The translations under genes were made by a program, and so were the position numbers. From IMG/VR virus record IMGVR_UViG_3300022187_000330, positions 1 to 20,142 of that record: DNA of 20,142 nt. One strand, written 5' to 3'. Below are positions 2,667 to 7,601 of the stretch, one piece after another. This stretch comes from a virus. The first letter of the stretch is position 1. Each line of letters opens with the position of its first letter. A model generated the notes under the pieces. That model did not search any database. It worked only from the letters and a program-made list of their open reading frames with translations, and had not been told where the DNA came from.

Positions 2667-3869
2667 TTAGTGTAGTGCCACCCAAGATCCGTTAGCGTAC
2701 CCGTAGAACTTGTTTACGCTTGTGTTGTAAATCATCTCGCCATTAGTCGGGGACGAGATAGCGTTCATCTGCGTAGTAGTCATCCTAGGCAGTATTACAC
2801 CACCCGTTGTAGATGTTACTTCTAGTGGAGCAGATGGCAACGAAGTCCCTATGCCTACGTTTCCAGCAGAGCTGTCAATAAAAAGTTTTGTAGACAAACC
2901 GTTTGCTGTCCTAAATGAATGAGTCTCTGCATCATAAAAGGATTTATTTGCAAATGAAGCATGACTCTCTCCATACAACTCAATGTTTGCGCCGCCCGAG
3001 TTACCACCTTGAATCGTGATATTGGCAGCACCGTCTCCACTTTTTAGCAGAGGCGTTATAACCGCAGATGTAATTCTTCCAGTTCCTACAACATGAAGAG
3101 TATCTGAAGGCGATGTAGTTCCAATTCCTACTTGGGGACCTGTTAGAATGGTTATAGCGTCACCATCAACAGTGTTGCCAGATGCTCTATATCCAATTTG
3201 TAAAGCGTTAGAATCTTCACCATGCAAGTACCACCATCTGGCACCATTGCCCCAAATGCCTATTCTAGCTCCGCTTGCATCGTAAGCGCCTAGTTTAGCA
3301 TTACCACCAATTTGAGTATTTATATCTGAAGTGGTCCCTAAACCAACGCAGTTCGTAGACGCATCTACAAACAATGTGCCTGAGTCGAAGTTAGCATCAT
3401 CGGATGCCGTGAGGGTAGTAAATGCTCCAGATCCAGTTCCATCTACCTTTGAATCAGCGTAAGCCTTTATGCTTTGCTGGGTAGCTAATGAAGTAGCGGA
3501 GTCAGAAACCATGTTATCCTCATCCAAAATAGTTACTTCAGCAGGTGCAGCAGAACTGCCAGAAACATTGCCAAGAACCGTAAGGTTAGTAAAATTTTCT
3601 ATCTTAGCCTTAGTAACATTGCTGTCTATAATCTTAGCAGTACTAACTGAGTTCGATGCCAGTTTAACAGTAGTAACTGCGCCAGTAGCAATCTTGCCAG
3701 TATCAATCCCTAGATCCTTAACAATAATTGCCCCAGAGCCAGCCAACTGAGTAGAGATTGAGTCTACTGCTCCTGAAGCAAACACAGCATCATTAACTGC
3801 ATTGTTTAAAGAACTTGCTGTTACCTGATCTCCGTTAGCAAACGTGTTTCCTGTTGTAAGTACTGCCAT
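2667..3869 (-). CDS. Tail fibre protein
   Basis: 400 aa, ATG start, with a one-base TAATG overlap with the nozzle gene. The N-terminal part (about 1-140) has the loose repeat style of phage fibres (GAVTTVKLASNSVSTAKI, then DSNVTKAKIENF), followed by ATQQSIKAYADSKVDG. The middle and end carry three beta-rich fibre motifs: VGLGTTSD, VGIGTTSP and VGIGTSLP. The C-terminus (VILPRMTTTQMNAISSPTNG, then MIYNTSVNKFYGYANGSWV) is a tip segment widely seen at the ends of phage and bacterial fibres, where it probably helps trimer formation or receptor contact. It lies just after the nozzle gene, which fits a fibre attached to a short tail. No intramolecular chaperone or enzyme domain is visible. Confidence 0.85.
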   Translation of the reverse strand: MAVLTTGNTFANGDQVTASSLNNAVNDAVFASGAVDSISTQLAGSGAIIVKDLGIDTGKIATGAVTTVKLASNSVSTAKIIDSNVTKAKIENFTNLTVLGNVSGSSAAPAEVTILDEDNMVSDSATSLATQQSIKAYADSKVDGTGSGAFTTLTASDDANFDSGTLFVDASTNCVGLGTTSDINTQIGGNAKLGAYDASGARIGIWGNGARWWYLHGEDSNALQIGYRASGNTVDGDAITILTGPQVGIGTTSPSDTLHVVGTGRITSAVITPLLKSGDGAANITIQGGNSGGANIELYGESHASFANKSFYDAETHSFRTANGLSTKLFIDSSAGNVGIGTSLPSAPLEVTSTTGGVILPRMTTTQMNAISSPTNGEMIYNTSVNKFYGYANGSWVALH

Positions 3870-6064
3870 TATTCTGCCTTATCTAAACTTCTAAATGATG
3901 TAGCTCCAGCTACCTTTAATGCTCTTAATCTAGGTCGTCCCTTAGTTGTCGTTAATTTAAACTGTAATCCGTAAGCTCTTCTGTTTCCGAATCTGCCCCT
4001 TAATGAGACATCTTCGTCAATAGCAAGAGGAGATCCATTAAGATCACTAATGCTGCTTAGGTCTATTATATCATCTATATTTTCTGTGATTGCCTGCAAA
4101 TCTCCATCTGAAGTATTATCTTCACTGGACTGAATATGCAAGTCAAAATTGTTCCATTTTTTCCTATCTAAAGAATTAAGATTAAACATCCTAGTAATAA
4201 CTGAAGAGGAAACTTGAGAATTAGTAACGGTACCATCTACTTGAACTATGTACAAATCCCTATCGTCAGATCTAGATTCGTACCTATGAACTCCACCGTT
4301 ACGGTTTATTGCGTACACTGACCGCTTATCTCCTTCACCAGCAACAGTTAACTCACTGTACTGCCATTCAGGGTCGTTTATGCTGTCTATAGATTCCCAT
4401 TGCTTGTTAAGAAAATTGTAAATAAGCAAAGCGTTATTAGTGGTGCTATCATCAAGTGGAACAGCTAAGTAGTACCTATTATTGAAATAAACGGACTTAG
4501 CTTTGCTTGCGTACTCCTTGTTAATTCTCTTAATAGTGCCTTCAATGGAAGCTGACAGTGGAACATCTTGTCCTCTAAGATTGTACAAATCAATAAAGTC
4601 TAGTCCATAAACTCCATTGTCGGACAAAAATATCATACTATTACCTATCTGCTGTATGCTATCCCTGGCTAAACAACCAACCTCGTTAGTAATTAACTGA
4701 GATACTGAGCTTCCTAAGTCTAAACTGTTGGCAACAATATGTACACTATTGCGATTAAAGACAACCAACTTGTCATCCGAAAAAGAATGAAAGCCTACAA
4801 TAAAATCAGCAGCACCAGCATTAAATCTAAACTGCCCGTAAATTCTATCGTAAGTATCTGCATCCAGTATATCCGAAAACAGCACTTCATCAACAATATT
4901 TCGATTAGTAATAACAGCCGATCCAGACGTTCCTGTTACATCGTACTGATACGGCACAATCAATCTACGTTGATGATACGTTCCAAATGCAGGAGCAGGA
5001 GAGTGCGTAAATCCTAGTCCAATAGAAACTGGCTGCTGAAAAACAACTCCACTAATATTGCTTTGATTAGATAATTGAACGTAAAAATCTACAGTAAAAG
5101 CAGTATCATCTCTTTCGGCTACAATAAATTGATCTCCTATTGTAAAAGTTGAAGGAGATCCTACACTTTCTATAGTAAAAGTATCCCCGACACTCAAACC
5201 GTTCATTGCTACCAAGTTAGCAAAAGTAGCAGTAGCTTTGCCATCAACAATATCAACATCATTTGGAGTAAGTTGCTTTGGTTGACTGTAGTCTCCGTTG
5301 CTAACAAGAGAAAATGTAGGAGAAGAAATATCTCCATCCCACTCCATTGCAATGTCTCCTTTACGGAAAATGTACAACTTATTAAAGGCTTGAATTACTG
5401 TGCTTCCTTCAGGAACAGTTTCTCCAGCAGGATAAGTAAGCGTTACAGTAGTAGCTCCTGAATCAGCAGTCTTAACTAGAACAGTGCTGTTAGTAGCTAC
5501 ACAAGCTACATAGGATTCAGAATCATTATTAGGATCTGAGAACTCGCAAGAAGCTTCAATAAAGTTACCAGCGGTAGCGTCTAGCTTCATGCCAGTAACA
5601 GTTAGTCCATCATCGGTAGGACTACTATCTAATCCAGTTACGGTGTAAGTAATAACGTAATCACTTATTCGGGTCGCAATAAAATTTCCATTAGGATTTA
5701 TTAACCCAGTGTAATCAAATCCACTAATGTTTACCCCAGTACCATCTATTATCCCGTGAGGATTAGTTCCAAAATCTATAGTAATAAGATCACCAACTCT
5801 AGTAAAAGAACTAACAGCAGGAATTGATTCGTACAGATAAAACGGCAATGTAAAAACGCCAGCAGTAAACGGAGATGAAAATAACTCAATACCTTTTCTT
5901 GGTTGCCACTCTCCGTTCAAATCCATACGGCCATTATTAGATTCAGTCAAAATACCTGGACGCAACTGATCTGGCCTTAACTTATTGTTAAAGCCTGTGA
6001 ACCCTTGGTCTAGATCCTCTTGAATCCGGTTATCTAAATTTCCGTATGAACTGTACCTTGCCAT
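3869..6064 (-). CDS. Tail nozzle / tail tubular protein B-like
   Basis: 731 aa, ATG start directly adjoining the previous stop. Repeated beta-strand blocks typical of the beta-propeller tail nozzles of short-tailed phages (P22 gp10, T7 gp12 type) are visible at about 415-620: a block with DDKLVVFNRNSVHIVANSLD, then MIFLSDNGVYGLDFIDLYNL, YFNNRYYLAVPLDD, NALLIYNFLNKQWESIDS and SVYAINRNGGVHRYE. The N-terminus (GNLDNRIQEDLDQGFTGFNN, with LRPDQLRPG soon after) resembles the adaptor-facing segment of such proteins. The product would plug the end of the tail and mount the fibre. It is encoded next to the fibre but 5 kb from the adaptor, an ordering that separates the two tube components. The assignment rests on fold-type motifs, not on a close match. 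Confidence 0.8.
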   Translation of the reverse strand: MARYSSYGNLDNRIQEDLDQGFTGFNNKLRPDQLRPGILTESNNGRMDLNGEWQPRKGIELFSSPFTAGVFTLPFYLYESIPAVSSFTRVGDLITIDFGTNPHGIIDGTGVNISGFDYTGLINPNGNFIATRISDYVITYTVTGLDSSPTDDGLTVTGMKLDATAGNFIEASCEFSDPNNDSESYVACVATNSTVLVKTADSGATTVTLTYPAGETVPEGSTVIQAFNKLYIFRKGDIAMEWDGDISSPTFSLVSNGDYSQPKQLTPNDVDIVDGKATATFANLVAMNGLSVGDTFTIESVGSPSTFTIGDQFIVAERDDTAFTVDFYVQLSNQSNISGVVFQQPVSIGLGFTHSPAPAFGTYHQRRLIVPYQYDVTGTSGSAVITNRNIVDEVLFSDILDADTYDRIYGQFRFNAGAADFIVGFHSFSDDKLVVFNRNSVHIVANSLDLGSSVSQLITNEVGCLARDSIQQIGNSMIFLSDNGVYGLDFIDLYNLRGQDVPLSASIEGTIKRINKEYASKAKSVYFNNRYYLAVPLDDSTTNNALLIYNFLNKQWESIDSINDPEWQYSELTVAGEGDKRSVYAINRNGGVHRYESRSDDRDLYIVQVDGTVTNSQVSSSVITRMFNLNSLDRKKWNNFDLHIQSSEDNTSDGDLQAITENIDDIIDLSSISDLNGSPLAIDEDVSLRGRFGNRRAYGLQFKLTTTKGRPRLRALKVAGATSFRSLDKAE

Positions 6065-6358
6065 CTAGTATTTGCCTTTTCTGCTTTTAGGAGAACTCTT
6101 AGTACTTCCACCCTTGCCTGCCCACAACTCGGTACAGGCTAAGTGTTTAGCTGTTCCTGGTTTTGCTGTGCTGCACTTATGTCTAGCCTTAAAAGATCTT
6201 CTGGCTGCATCAGAATAGTTATGCCCGTAGCCAGTAGCTCCTGCATGGACAAGCTTACGCTTACCATCTATGCAGTACAGCTTCATTATCTTCTTACCTG
6301 GACGGGTGCTTTTCTTCACCTGCCCACAACTCATTGATGCTTTAGGACTTTTTGCCAC
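6065..6358 (-). CDS. Small basic Cys-containing protein
   Basis: 97 aa from GTG 6358, which overlaps the previous gene by 17 nt; an in-frame ATG at 6334 (89 aa) is the alternative. The protein is rich in Lys, Ser and Gly with four Cys (SCGQ, YCID, HKCS, ACTE). It has a central motif AGATGYGHNYSDAARRSFKA followed by RHKC. The basic tail ends KSSPKSRKGKY. The spaced Cys/His residues would allow metal binding. I do not recognise a named function. It closes a block of five consecutive tiny basic genes, and its stop abuts the nozzle start. Confidence 0.75.
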   Translation of the reverse strand: MAKSPKASMSCGQVKKSTRPGKKIMKLYCIDGKRKLVHAGATGYGHNYSDAARRSFKARHKCSTAKPGTAKHLACTELWAGKGGSTKSSPKSRKGKY

Positions 6359-6623
6359 GTTGTATTGATTGTACTCTTCGAGGTTTACCTGCTGGTTGTC
6401 CCAGACGTTTCTTCTGGGCTATCCTTGATTGTTTCTGAGATGCTGTCATTTCGCTTGCTGTGACTGGTGTACGGCTGCTGACGCGCTTTGAAGGACGACA
6501 GTAGGGTGTACCCCGTCCATCTCCCTCAGATCGACCACAGGGCTTTCCAGTGCGTACATCTACCCACTTCTCCTTGAACCACCGCTTAAGGTCAGCACCT
6601 GCCTTTGTCTTCCGTACAGCCAT
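6342..6623 (-). CDS. Small basic protein resembling DUF5872
   Basis: 93 aa, ATG start sharing a base with the previous stop (TAATG). The N-terminal half has LKRWFKEKWVDVRTGKPCGR, then a Gly-rich spacer and YCRPSKRVSSRTPVTASEMT. This pattern is one I associate with the DUF5872 type found in viruses, including marine ones (from memory, not searched). It has two Cys and a long Arg/Lys/Gln-rich C-terminal tail ending QRGKKS. The function is unknown. The size, charge and setting suggest a nucleic-acid-binding or minor virion protein. Confidence 0.78.
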   Translation of the reverse strand: MAVRKTKAGADLKRWFKEKWVDVRTGKPCGRSEGDGRGTPYCRPSKRVSSRTPVTASEMTASQKQSRIAQKKRLGQPAGKPRRVQSIQRGKKS

Positions 6624-6754
6624 TACTTCTTCTTGCGTTTGCCCCAGTTAGCAGCACCTACCTTGCGACACTTGGCTATAGCCCCACTTGCGTACGCAGA
6701 TGGAAACACTTTGTACCGTGCCTTAACTTTTTTGTAGCAAGCGTCCTTGGGCAT
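6623..6754 (-). CDS. 43-aa basic protein
   Basis: A short frame, ATG 6754 to TAA 6623, which shares a base with both neighbours (TGATG upstream, TAATG downstream). It begins MPKDACYKKVKARYKVFPSA and continues with YASGAIAKCRKVGAANWGK and a KRKKK tail. The segment from VFPSAYASG to NWGK is a motif I recall from small proteins of marine phages. It has two Cys and about one third Lys/Arg. The exact one-base joins on both sides argue strongly that it is real. Function unknown. Confidence 0.75.
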   Translation of the reverse strand: MPKDACYKKVKARYKVFPSAYASGAIAKCRKVGAANWGKRKKK

Positions 6755-6855
6755 CACTTCTTTTTTCTACCGGAACATTTCTTGCATTTGCACCCTCTGG
6801 CAAATATCGCCATGACGGTAGCTCCTGCATCTTTAAGATCAAACAAACACTTCAT
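6754..6855 (-). CDS. 33-aa Cys/Lys-rich peptide
   Basis: ATG 6855 to TGA 6754. The peptide begins MKCLFDLKDAGATVMAIFAR and ends GCKCKKCSGRKKK. The C-terminal C-X-C-X-X-C cluster in a Lys-rich tail could bind metal or form disulphides. It shares one base with the gene before (TAATG) and one with the gene after (TGATG), which supports translation as part of a coupled chain. No family recognised. Confidence 0.65.
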   Translation of the reverse strand: MKCLFDLKDAGATVMAIFARGCKCKKCSGRKKK

Positions 6856-6917
6856 TAGCGTTTTTTCCCACCCTTAGATCCGTAACCACCTTTGCCTTTT
6901 CTTTTTCCGCAAGCCAT
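6855..6917 (-). CDS. 20-aa Gly/Lys-rich peptide
   Basis: ATG 6917 to TAA 6855, encoding MACGKRKGKGGYGSKGGKKR. Nearly every residue is Lys, Arg or Gly, with one Cys and one Tyr. The start follows the upstream membrane-protein stop by 1 nt, and the stop shares a base with the next ATG. It is very short, and the main support is its exact fit in the chain of coupled genes. It could be a packaged DNA- or RNA-binding peptide, but this is a guess from charge. Confidence 0.55.
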   Translation of the reverse strand: MACGKRKGKGGYGSKGGKKR

Positions 6918-6918
6918 A

Positions 6919-7140
6919 TCACTTATCCTCTGTTTCTTTTTTCCTAATCTTAATTCCAAGTACAACAAAATATATGCCTAGGCTAGTAGATACCAAACTA
7001 AGGACTCCACCAACCACTCCAAGTATTGTGTTTAGTTCTGCTATCCTGTCCAACATAGTACCCGTTGCAGCCAATAAACCACCAAGGGAAAAACCAAACC
7101 CCCTTAAGAAAGATTCATGTGCTGCCTCTGGTAAGTTCAT
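6919..7140 (-). CDS. Two-helix membrane protein, holin-like
   Basis: I chose ATG 7140 (73 aa) because it makes an ATGA overlap with the previous stop; an in-frame GTG at 7185 would add 15 residues overlapping the neighbour. Two hydrophobic segments are visible: about residues 13-29 (FSLGGLLAATGTMLDRIA region) and 33-57 (ILGVVGGVLSLVSTSLGIYF). A charged tail KIRKKETEDK follows. Size, two helices and charged end fit a small class II-type holin or antiholin. It follows another predicted membrane protein, so the two may act together in lysis. No endolysin is present in the window to confirm this. Confidence 0.65.
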   Translation of the reverse strand: MNLPEAAHESFLRGFGFSLGGLLAATGTMLDRIAELNTILGVVGGVLSLVSTSLGIYFVVLGIKIRKKETEDK

Positions 7141-7601
7141 TCTGAAAATAGTCTCTTGTTTAAGTCTCGTTGTCCGAAATACCACCCGCCGTAAGCGAAT
7201 GCTATTGTGAAAATTTGCTGGAGAATGACATCCTGGTATTGATCAGGCATCTGGAAGTACAGGATGCCAGCTAGAATGTGTACGCCTACAGCCAGCAATG
7301 GACGCACAGATCCCTTAAATACAAAGTGCCATATCAACAGACCCTTCTGCCAAGGCTTCTCTGCTATGCTGGCTACAGATACCAACGCATCACTCTCATG
7401 CTGGGCTGCTTTCTGAGACGCTTGGAAGTCTGCACTATCAGCAGCAATAGTTCCCTTGTCGATTTGGAGCTTTACCATCTCCCTTTCGATTTCGGCTTGG
7501 GCTTTCATGCCTTTAATCTTCAGCCATCCAGACGCAACAGATCCAGCAATCCCAAGAATGCCGCCTGTCCCTGCGTTAGTTAGTGCTTGAATGAAGTCCA
7601 T
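7137..7601 (-). CDS. Holin-like membrane protein (three-helix type)
   Basis: 154 aa, ATG start sharing a base with the 26-aa peptide's stop (TAATG). An N-terminal Gly/Ala-rich hydrophobic segment (about 11-29, GTGGILGIAGSVASGWLKIK) is followed by a charged amphipathic helix (KAQAEIEREMVKLQIDKG). Two further hydrophobic segments sit near the C-terminus: SVRPLLAVGVHILAGILYF and ILQQIFTIAFAYGGWYFGQ. The layout, including the VRP motif before the second segment, resembles the three-helix holins known from gene transfer agents and many phages. It would make pores in the host inner membrane. The assignment is from topology and general resemblance only. Confidence 0.7.
   Translation of the reverse strand: MDFIQALTNAGTGGILGIAGSVASGWLKIKGMKAQAEIEREMVKLQIDKGTIAADSADFQASQKAAQHESDALVSVASIAEKPWQKGLLIWHFVFKGSVRPLLAVGVHILAGILYFQMPDQYQDVILQQIFTIAFAYGGWYFGQRDLNKRLFSE

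Follow-up and report, generated by a model that had tools for sequence, protein, structure and literature searches.

A block of five small basic phage proteins, three of them related to Tlr6F or DUF5872: conserved cysteine pairs and fusions of one member to head proteins

Small basic proteins accompany packaged DNA in several systems, including the T4 internal proteins, the microvirus J protein and the sperm protamines, the last of which are also cross-linked through Cys. The products of the five small genes described here may work like these proteins, but they are folded mini-domains. By family, the relatives already described are Tlr6F (DUF5754) and DUF5872. Almost every polinton-like virus has a conserved Tlr6F, as do several virophages, many giant viruses and some phages that are poorly characterised (PMC4642659; PMC12220804), and the family has been noted since 2015 without a known structure or function (PMC4642659). 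In the giant virus CpV-BQ1, DUF5872 is reported alongside DUF5754 (PMC12085832). In the available portions of the literature, no function is stated for DUF5872, DUF5754, DUF6321 or Tlr6F, and neither Tlr6F nor DUF5872 is connected with head proteins or with Cys pairing. A further described relative is the T4-GC119 protein of cyanomyoviruses (Syn19_101, SSCSM1_29 and the S-P4 protein), which holds modules A, B and DUF6321 in a single chain and carries structural or virion labels in S-P4 and S-SCSM1. Unlike the genes of the window, it is a large fused protein of tailed cyanobacterial phages, and no Tlr6F module was found in the S-SCSM1 scan. The families are known by name already; the head-protein fusions of Tlr6F are added here. 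These fusions, the division of DUF5872 between two genes and the strictly paired Cys together give a concrete, testable location and chemistry for these small protein families in cultivable phages.

The window is the whole stretch of DNA that was analysed, 20,142 bases in length, and is an entire IMG/VR record. Judged by the capsid protein, its closest annotated relative is phage C75C1 (64% identity). The five-gene block at 6065-6917 is confirmed as real, with B, A and D under purifying selection and recurring in relatives (Table 1). At least three of the five genes are conserved across many viruses, and two of these also have known counterparts in the giant viruses that infect algae and amoebae. 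The genes are transcribed head to tail in the order F, E, B, A, D. The F/E, E/B and B/A junctions overlap by one base each and the A/D junction by 17 bases, and the end of gene D is one base apart from the start of the 731-aa gene at 6064.

A sequence-only reading had described five small, overlapping, basic, Cys-bearing frames, and the frames, their basic character and the presence of Cys in all five are confirmed. It had also given some of them Cys in the form C-X-C-X-X-C, which E carries alone among the five. The same reading had placed the block between lysis and tail genes. The lysis side of this placement is not confirmed, as the 73-aa upstream product has zero matches in Pfam or PHROG and the PHROG matches of the 154-aa product are all of unknown function. 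On the downstream side, the 731-aa product matches head-closure and virion-structural PHROGs (phrog_3287, E 2e-10; phrog_578, head closure Hc3, E 4e-8). Elsewhere in the window, a tail-fibre-like protein at 925-2685 on the minus strand bears a long collagen-like repeat.

Table 1. Genes of the block and their neighbours in the window.
Feature	Position	Strand	Net charge	Cys	Basis
F: 20-aa basic peptide MACGKRKGKGGYGSKGGKKR, accessory member	6855..6917	minus	+8	1	open reading frame
E: accessory basic peptide of 33 aa containing GCKCKKC	6754..6855	minus	+8	4	open reading frame
B: 43-aa counterpart of the DUF5872 N-terminal half, with one Cys pair	6623..6754	minus	+13	2	
A: 93-aa C-terminal half of DUF5872 with an invariant Cys pair	6342..6623	minus	+20	2	
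D: 97-aa DUF5754/Tlr6F-type module, two Cys pairs, GTG start	6065..6358	minus	+21	4	
Downstream neighbour: 731-aa head-closure/virion structural-like protein	3869..6064	minus			PHROG matches
Upstream neighbour: membrane-like protein of 73 aa without a family match	6919..7140	minus			
Upstream neighbour: 154-aa protein, best match phrog_6637 (unknown function)	7137..7601	minus			

A profile search of the 93-aa protein against DUF5872, suggested by the sequence-only reading, gives a clear match. Protein A aligns to positions 48-111 of the Pfam model (PF19197) with 58.8 bits, which passes the gathering cut-off of 27.5 for the C-terminal half. The N-terminal half is absent from the A chain of the window and sits in the adjacent gene B, which matches positions 11-42 with 14.4 bits, under the cut-off, and phrog_727 with E 1e-17. 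Natural fusions of B and A occur in two other loci, where one frame spans DUF5872 positions 7-112 of 116 (L128, 51.4 bits) or 12-112 of 116 (L131, 47.7 bits). Because these single-frame fusions cover nearly the whole Pfam model, genes B and A are, at the level of sequence, one DUF5872 split in two. The window version differs from the Pfam family in being divided between two genes that overlap by one base. A third module, C, corresponds to DUF6321; it matches with 75-86 bits in Syn19_101 and P-SCSP2 and is present in many relatives. DUF6321 has no match in the window record in a search whose controls were silent too, and C is taken as missing from the window. The NCBIfam search returned nothing, and sequence searches with A, B and D and profile searches with D and A found zero matches in the PDB up to E 10. 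The structure model of an A/B fusion is weak (pTM 0.37), and its BFVD matches are a lead only.

Window D matches DUF5754 (PF19058) with 11.5 bits, below the gathering cut-off of 27.4. Its homologue in the elemo Flavobacterium phages, which is 63% identical to it, matches the same model with 44 bits and passes the cut-off. Through this intermediate, D is assigned on sequence similarity to the DUF5754/Tlr6F module. Window D resembles the Tlr6F/DUF5754 proteins of other viruses, to which it is related via the elemo homologue, in being small and virus-associated; it differs from them in overlapping gene A within a late phage operon, beside a split DUF5872. The family appears to occur in viruses rather than cells. 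In a set of 84,980 genomes, 25 DUF5754-type loci are present, 24 of them in records titled as MAGs and one in an isolate-labelled assembly. The AlphaFold model of D predicts a beta-hairpin followed by two helices, with a mean pLDDT of 79.9 and values of about 90 across most of residues 11-80. Its BFVD matches in Foldseek are ICP1 ORF125, a phage XkdF, Tunisvirus and Chloriridovirus. No solved structure resembling D was found by PDB sequence and profile searches or by structure alignment to 999 chains. The VIA-align matches of the model are regarded as noise, with 12 of the 999 chains at Z 2.0-2.1, all of them metallo-beta-lactamases.

Some D variants, at L168:18237-18485 and similar loci, have a C-terminal half that resembles DUF6321. 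The L168 protein matches DUF5754 with 21.0 bits and DUF6321 with 15.3 bits, both below cut-off. Since the C and D profiles overlap on the same ORF, DUF5754 and DUF6321 may share a common C-terminal half, which is suggested as a lead only. Apparent C+D fusions in the first profile scan were rejected, being one short ORF caught by two overlapping profiles rather than two domains. After this overlap the C profile was rebuilt as pure DUF6321.

The Cys residues of these modules are conserved in pairs. Both conserved Cys are present in 128/128 distinct A homologues and in 25/25 members of the C family, and all 91 distinct B homologues have either zero or two Cys; for these counts identical rows were collapsed and rows with less than 85% profile coverage dropped, and relatedness limits the number of independent events. 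In the D family, columns 12 and 30 hold both Cys in 70 sequences, neither in 8 and a single Cys in none. Columns 63 and 77 hold both in 67, neither in 11 and a single Cys in none. Read by eye on window D, the two pairs are Cys 11 and 29 and Cys 62 and 75. The two pairs of D are lost independently, with five sequences retaining the first pair only and two the second only. An odd Cys total occurs in 7 of 78 D sequences, owing to extra Cys elsewhere. After clustering at 80%, the pairs are still unsplit in 22 B clusters and 20 D clusters. The D alignment contains 41 homologues after a similarity filter of 0.88, of which 40 were used and one fragment was left out. A B homologue (L110) has its two Cys at positions unlike those of the others, as if the pair had moved.

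The pairing in B and D fits disulfides better than a single zinc site. Disulfides give pairs whose members come and go together, each pair independently of the other; the loss of a single Cys4 zinc site would remove four residues at once. An invariant four-ligand zinc-finger set is absent from D, where pairs are lost independently or altogether. The zinc binding raised in the sequence-only reading is disfavoured by the strict pairs, by the independent loss of the D pairs and by whole sub-families that are free of Cys. The bacterial cytoplasm is reducing, so the strict Cys pairing suggests that the proteins act outside the cell, in the virion.

The D module is fused to head proteins in several phages. 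In ICP1, Gp125 is an XkdF-type prohead protease (PF14550, 39.3 bits) with a D module as its C-terminal part. The published assignments for this phage, in the portion of the paper available, are Gp125 as protease, Gp124 as scaffold and Gp127 as portal (PMC9040626). The Foldseek search with the D model recovers ICP1 ORF125 and a phage XkdF independently. Contig L265 encodes the protease and then D, in the same order as ICP1. Contig L266 has a ChaB-like start followed by D and then the protease, and in Vibrio phage 1.101.O D lies ahead of the protease, so that three architectures are present across these sources. The fusion is exceptional; in a later scan, 3 of 208 D ORFs carry the protease, namely those of L264 (ICP1), L265 and L266. 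In Aphanizomenon phage CL131, the 1393-aa ORF012 (L253:4402-8583) contains a portal domain (60-419), D (approximately 535-605), a pyrophosphatase-like domain (631-752) and a Mu-F domain (991-1103). This portal ORF is among 23 virion proteins found by LC-MS/MS, according to the part of the report available (PMC6293099). The presence of a pyrophosphatase domain within a portal fusion is unusual.

Because D is fused to an XkdF-type protease and lies between portal and Mu-F, these fusions would place the D module in the head interior; the linkage to head proteins is for D only, and in relatives. ICP1 Gp125 and window D both hold the module, although that of ICP1 is fused, nearly uncharged (net charge +2) and without Cys pairs. 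The fused D module of CL131 also has no Cys pairs. D genes are also present away from head genes, beside GroEL/GroES in elemo and beside a peptidase in HTVC106P. A proposed position of the HTVC008M D gene beside the portal was rejected, as the neighbour is a cytidyltransferase.

Homologues of the other modules are listed in published virion proteomes as fused proteins. A whole-genome profile scan of S-SCSM1 identifies one module-bearing ORF, SSCSM1_29 (A 29, B 67 and C 93 bits); one extra 12-bit match to a short frame was disregarded. SSCSM1_29 is labelled 'virion protein' in the sequence record. The S-SCSM1 paper, as far as its available text goes, reports 45 virion proteins found by MS, and the label presumably reflects MS detection. 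The T4-GC0119 protein of S-P4 is annotated 'Phage T4-like structural protein'. In S-CREM2, the two ORFs identified by a whole-genome scan are gp137, which bears module C, and gp160, which bears A and B, and the published MS table lists both, with 4 and 7 unique peptides, respectively. The coverage of gp137 is 4.1% from 4 peptides, which need not derive from the C module. By hand count, 29 of 48 S-CREM2 CDS of at least 890 nt are detected by MS, so the detection of two of two is unsurprising and indicates presence, not enrichment. A calculated virion-proteome enrichment (P 0.009) was set aside as it ignores protein length, for which the length-matched count is 29/48. The available text of the virion-proteome papers itself warns of carry-over after CsCl. 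Only fused homologues are listed in the published virions; the five window proteins and their stand-alone homologues are not seen there. In the available part of the P-SCSP1u cryo-EM paper, no density is assigned to a DUF6321 protein. The earlier suggestion that the proteins are packaged with the genome gains support through homologues only, from the two cyanophage virion proteomes, the portal fusion and the prohead-protease fusions.

Given that relatives form parts of phage head proteins and that the Cys are strictly paired, the mini-proteins are probably small disulfide-stapled head proteins rather than zinc fingers. The best explanation, held with middling confidence, is that they are late-made proteins of the head interior that neutralise or order the packaged DNA, with disulfides stapling them once the particle is released. 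The five proteins would be made late, as a head-associated cassette, and would enter the procapsid with the portal, scaffold and protease complex or with the DNA. Their basic surfaces would then neutralise or arrange the packaged DNA. After lysis, the conserved Cys pairs may close as intramolecular disulfides that staple each mini-domain outside the cell, a step suggested by the pairwise conservation. The DNA-condensing role given to the block in the sequence-only reading remains plausible for the stand-alone proteins, but the basic charge is not kept when D is fused. High positive charge is found in the window proteins (+8 to +21) and in CRP-901 (+19), but ICP1 D is only +2, so DNA neutralisation is not the general role of D. 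Charge neutralisation by itself cannot be the core function of D, of which docking to head components is likely a part.

It is possible, and proposed here tentatively, that Tlr6F, DUF6321 and DUF5872 form one toolkit of disulfide-stapled mini-domains of the head interior, traded among tailed phages as single genes, split pairs and fused chains. Of its members, DUF5754 and DUF5872 occur in giant viruses as well, and polinton-like viruses also have DUF5754. Tlr6F would serve portal and prohead protease as a module in the head lumen, and strict Cys pairing would mark proteins adapted to work outside the cell.

The main rival is that the proteins are cofactors of procapsid assembly or maturation, which bind portal, scaffold or protease and then leave or are degraded. 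The fusion to the XkdF protease, the location of the genes next to TerL, or flanked by scaffold and capsid, in several phages, and the weakly charged D of ICP1 are all in keeping with this role. It is judged fairly unlikely, since purified-virion proteomes list fused homologues and the Cys pairing is hard to reconcile with a purely cytoplasmic role. Late regulatory or host-interaction peptides that bind RNA or DNA, are left unpackaged and are merely encoded in the late operon are quite unlikely. The accessory members are small, basic and variable, and the D genes of elemo and HTVC106P lie beside GroEL/GroES and a peptidase, as would be expected of such peptides; the cyanomyovirus T4-GC119 gene is also placed in a hotspot with metabolic genes, according to the part of the source available (PMC3037559). 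The Cys pairing argues against this role, as do the repeated fusions to the portal and to the prohead protease. The host-modifying peptides suggested in the sequence-only reading gain no support from this analysis. Zinc-binding mini-proteins, in which Cys pairs coordinate a metal, possibly across subunits or jointly by B and A, are very improbable. All five proteins contain Cys, E contains CKCKKC and a pair is typical of each module, but D loses its two pairs independently (5 and 2 cases), B and D have sub-families without Cys, and a module with two Cys and no further invariant ligand does not form a classical site. That the block is non-functional or selfish clutter in a late-operon hotspot is barely credible and already contradicted for B, A and D, for although E, F and other tiny basic genes vary in membership, the dN/dS values are 0-0.39, conservation is long-range and D is kept in 16 of 18 capsid-ascertained contigs.

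The selection on codons that underlies this last point was measured by the Nei-Gojobori method against the window. Among the 13 non-identical relatives listed per gene, dN/dS is 0-0.09 for B, 0.08-0.39 for A and 0-0.12 for D, in comparisons at more than 80% length and 75% identity, with up to 14 listed per gene. The broken frames and lack of codon selection that the sequence-only reading had named as grounds against the block are not seen for B, A and D (dN/dS 0-0.39). For F and E, L095 is the single informative relative, with 4 synonymous and 0 nonsynonymous changes in F and 2 and 1 in E.

In a profile scan of 244 sources (the window and 243 loci), A is present in 134, B in 133 and D in 124. 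In 128 of these 134 A-bearing sources, B immediately precedes A or forms a fusion with it; the set was mostly fetched via A or D and so is biased as a sample for gene order. Within this A/D-biased sample, the B-A part of the five-gene order proposed for checking is conserved, and E and F are narrow. In a less biased, hand-picked subset of 18 contigs fetched by capsid gene, each with at least 6.5 kb downstream, D is present in 16 and A and B in 12. B adjoins A in CRP-7, C72C1 and HTVC027P and is near A in P-SCSP2. HTVC106P, C75C1 and CRP-901 also carry B and A. Among cultured phages, HTVC106P and CRP-901 have B, A and D as stand-alone genes, and the elemo phages of Flavobacterium BAL314 have D alone. 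Genes for TerL, portal, scaffold or capsid lie close to the modules in P-SCSP2, CRP-7, C72C1, Syn19 and P-SCSP1h. In the cyanomyovirus Syn19, A, B and C are fused into one protein, Syn19_101, encoded after gp16; the gene on its other flank is presumably gp17.

E and F are accessory basic peptides of narrow distribution that are exchanged rapidly. The E profile has matches in 5 sources, the window among them; in relatives, different tiny basic genes take the place of E. The DNA of F is identical in L088, L090 and L155, and F-like Gly/Lys peptides without Cys are present in L094, L097 and L098. Further families of tiny basic genes swap places upstream of D in L009, L093, L096, L099, L100, L101 and L103. 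The types that swap are GLYANIxAKRKRI, which is also found as P-SCSP1h_00019, HKMPNGQLHSGKTH, KITxADFKALK and KKSCGCKSCMGRRRVR.

Small genes of this kind are unannotated or called in the wrong frame in several public phage records and are therefore undercounted. In C75C1, the B gene (L001:25138-25305) is unannotated, and an overlapping wrong-frame CDS0044 (25124-25312) is annotated instead. Both B and A are unannotated in CRP-901, where they lie upstream of gp67 (L246, approximately 3464-3870). Roseophage SIO1 contains an unannotated D gene (L250, approximately 5001-5222).
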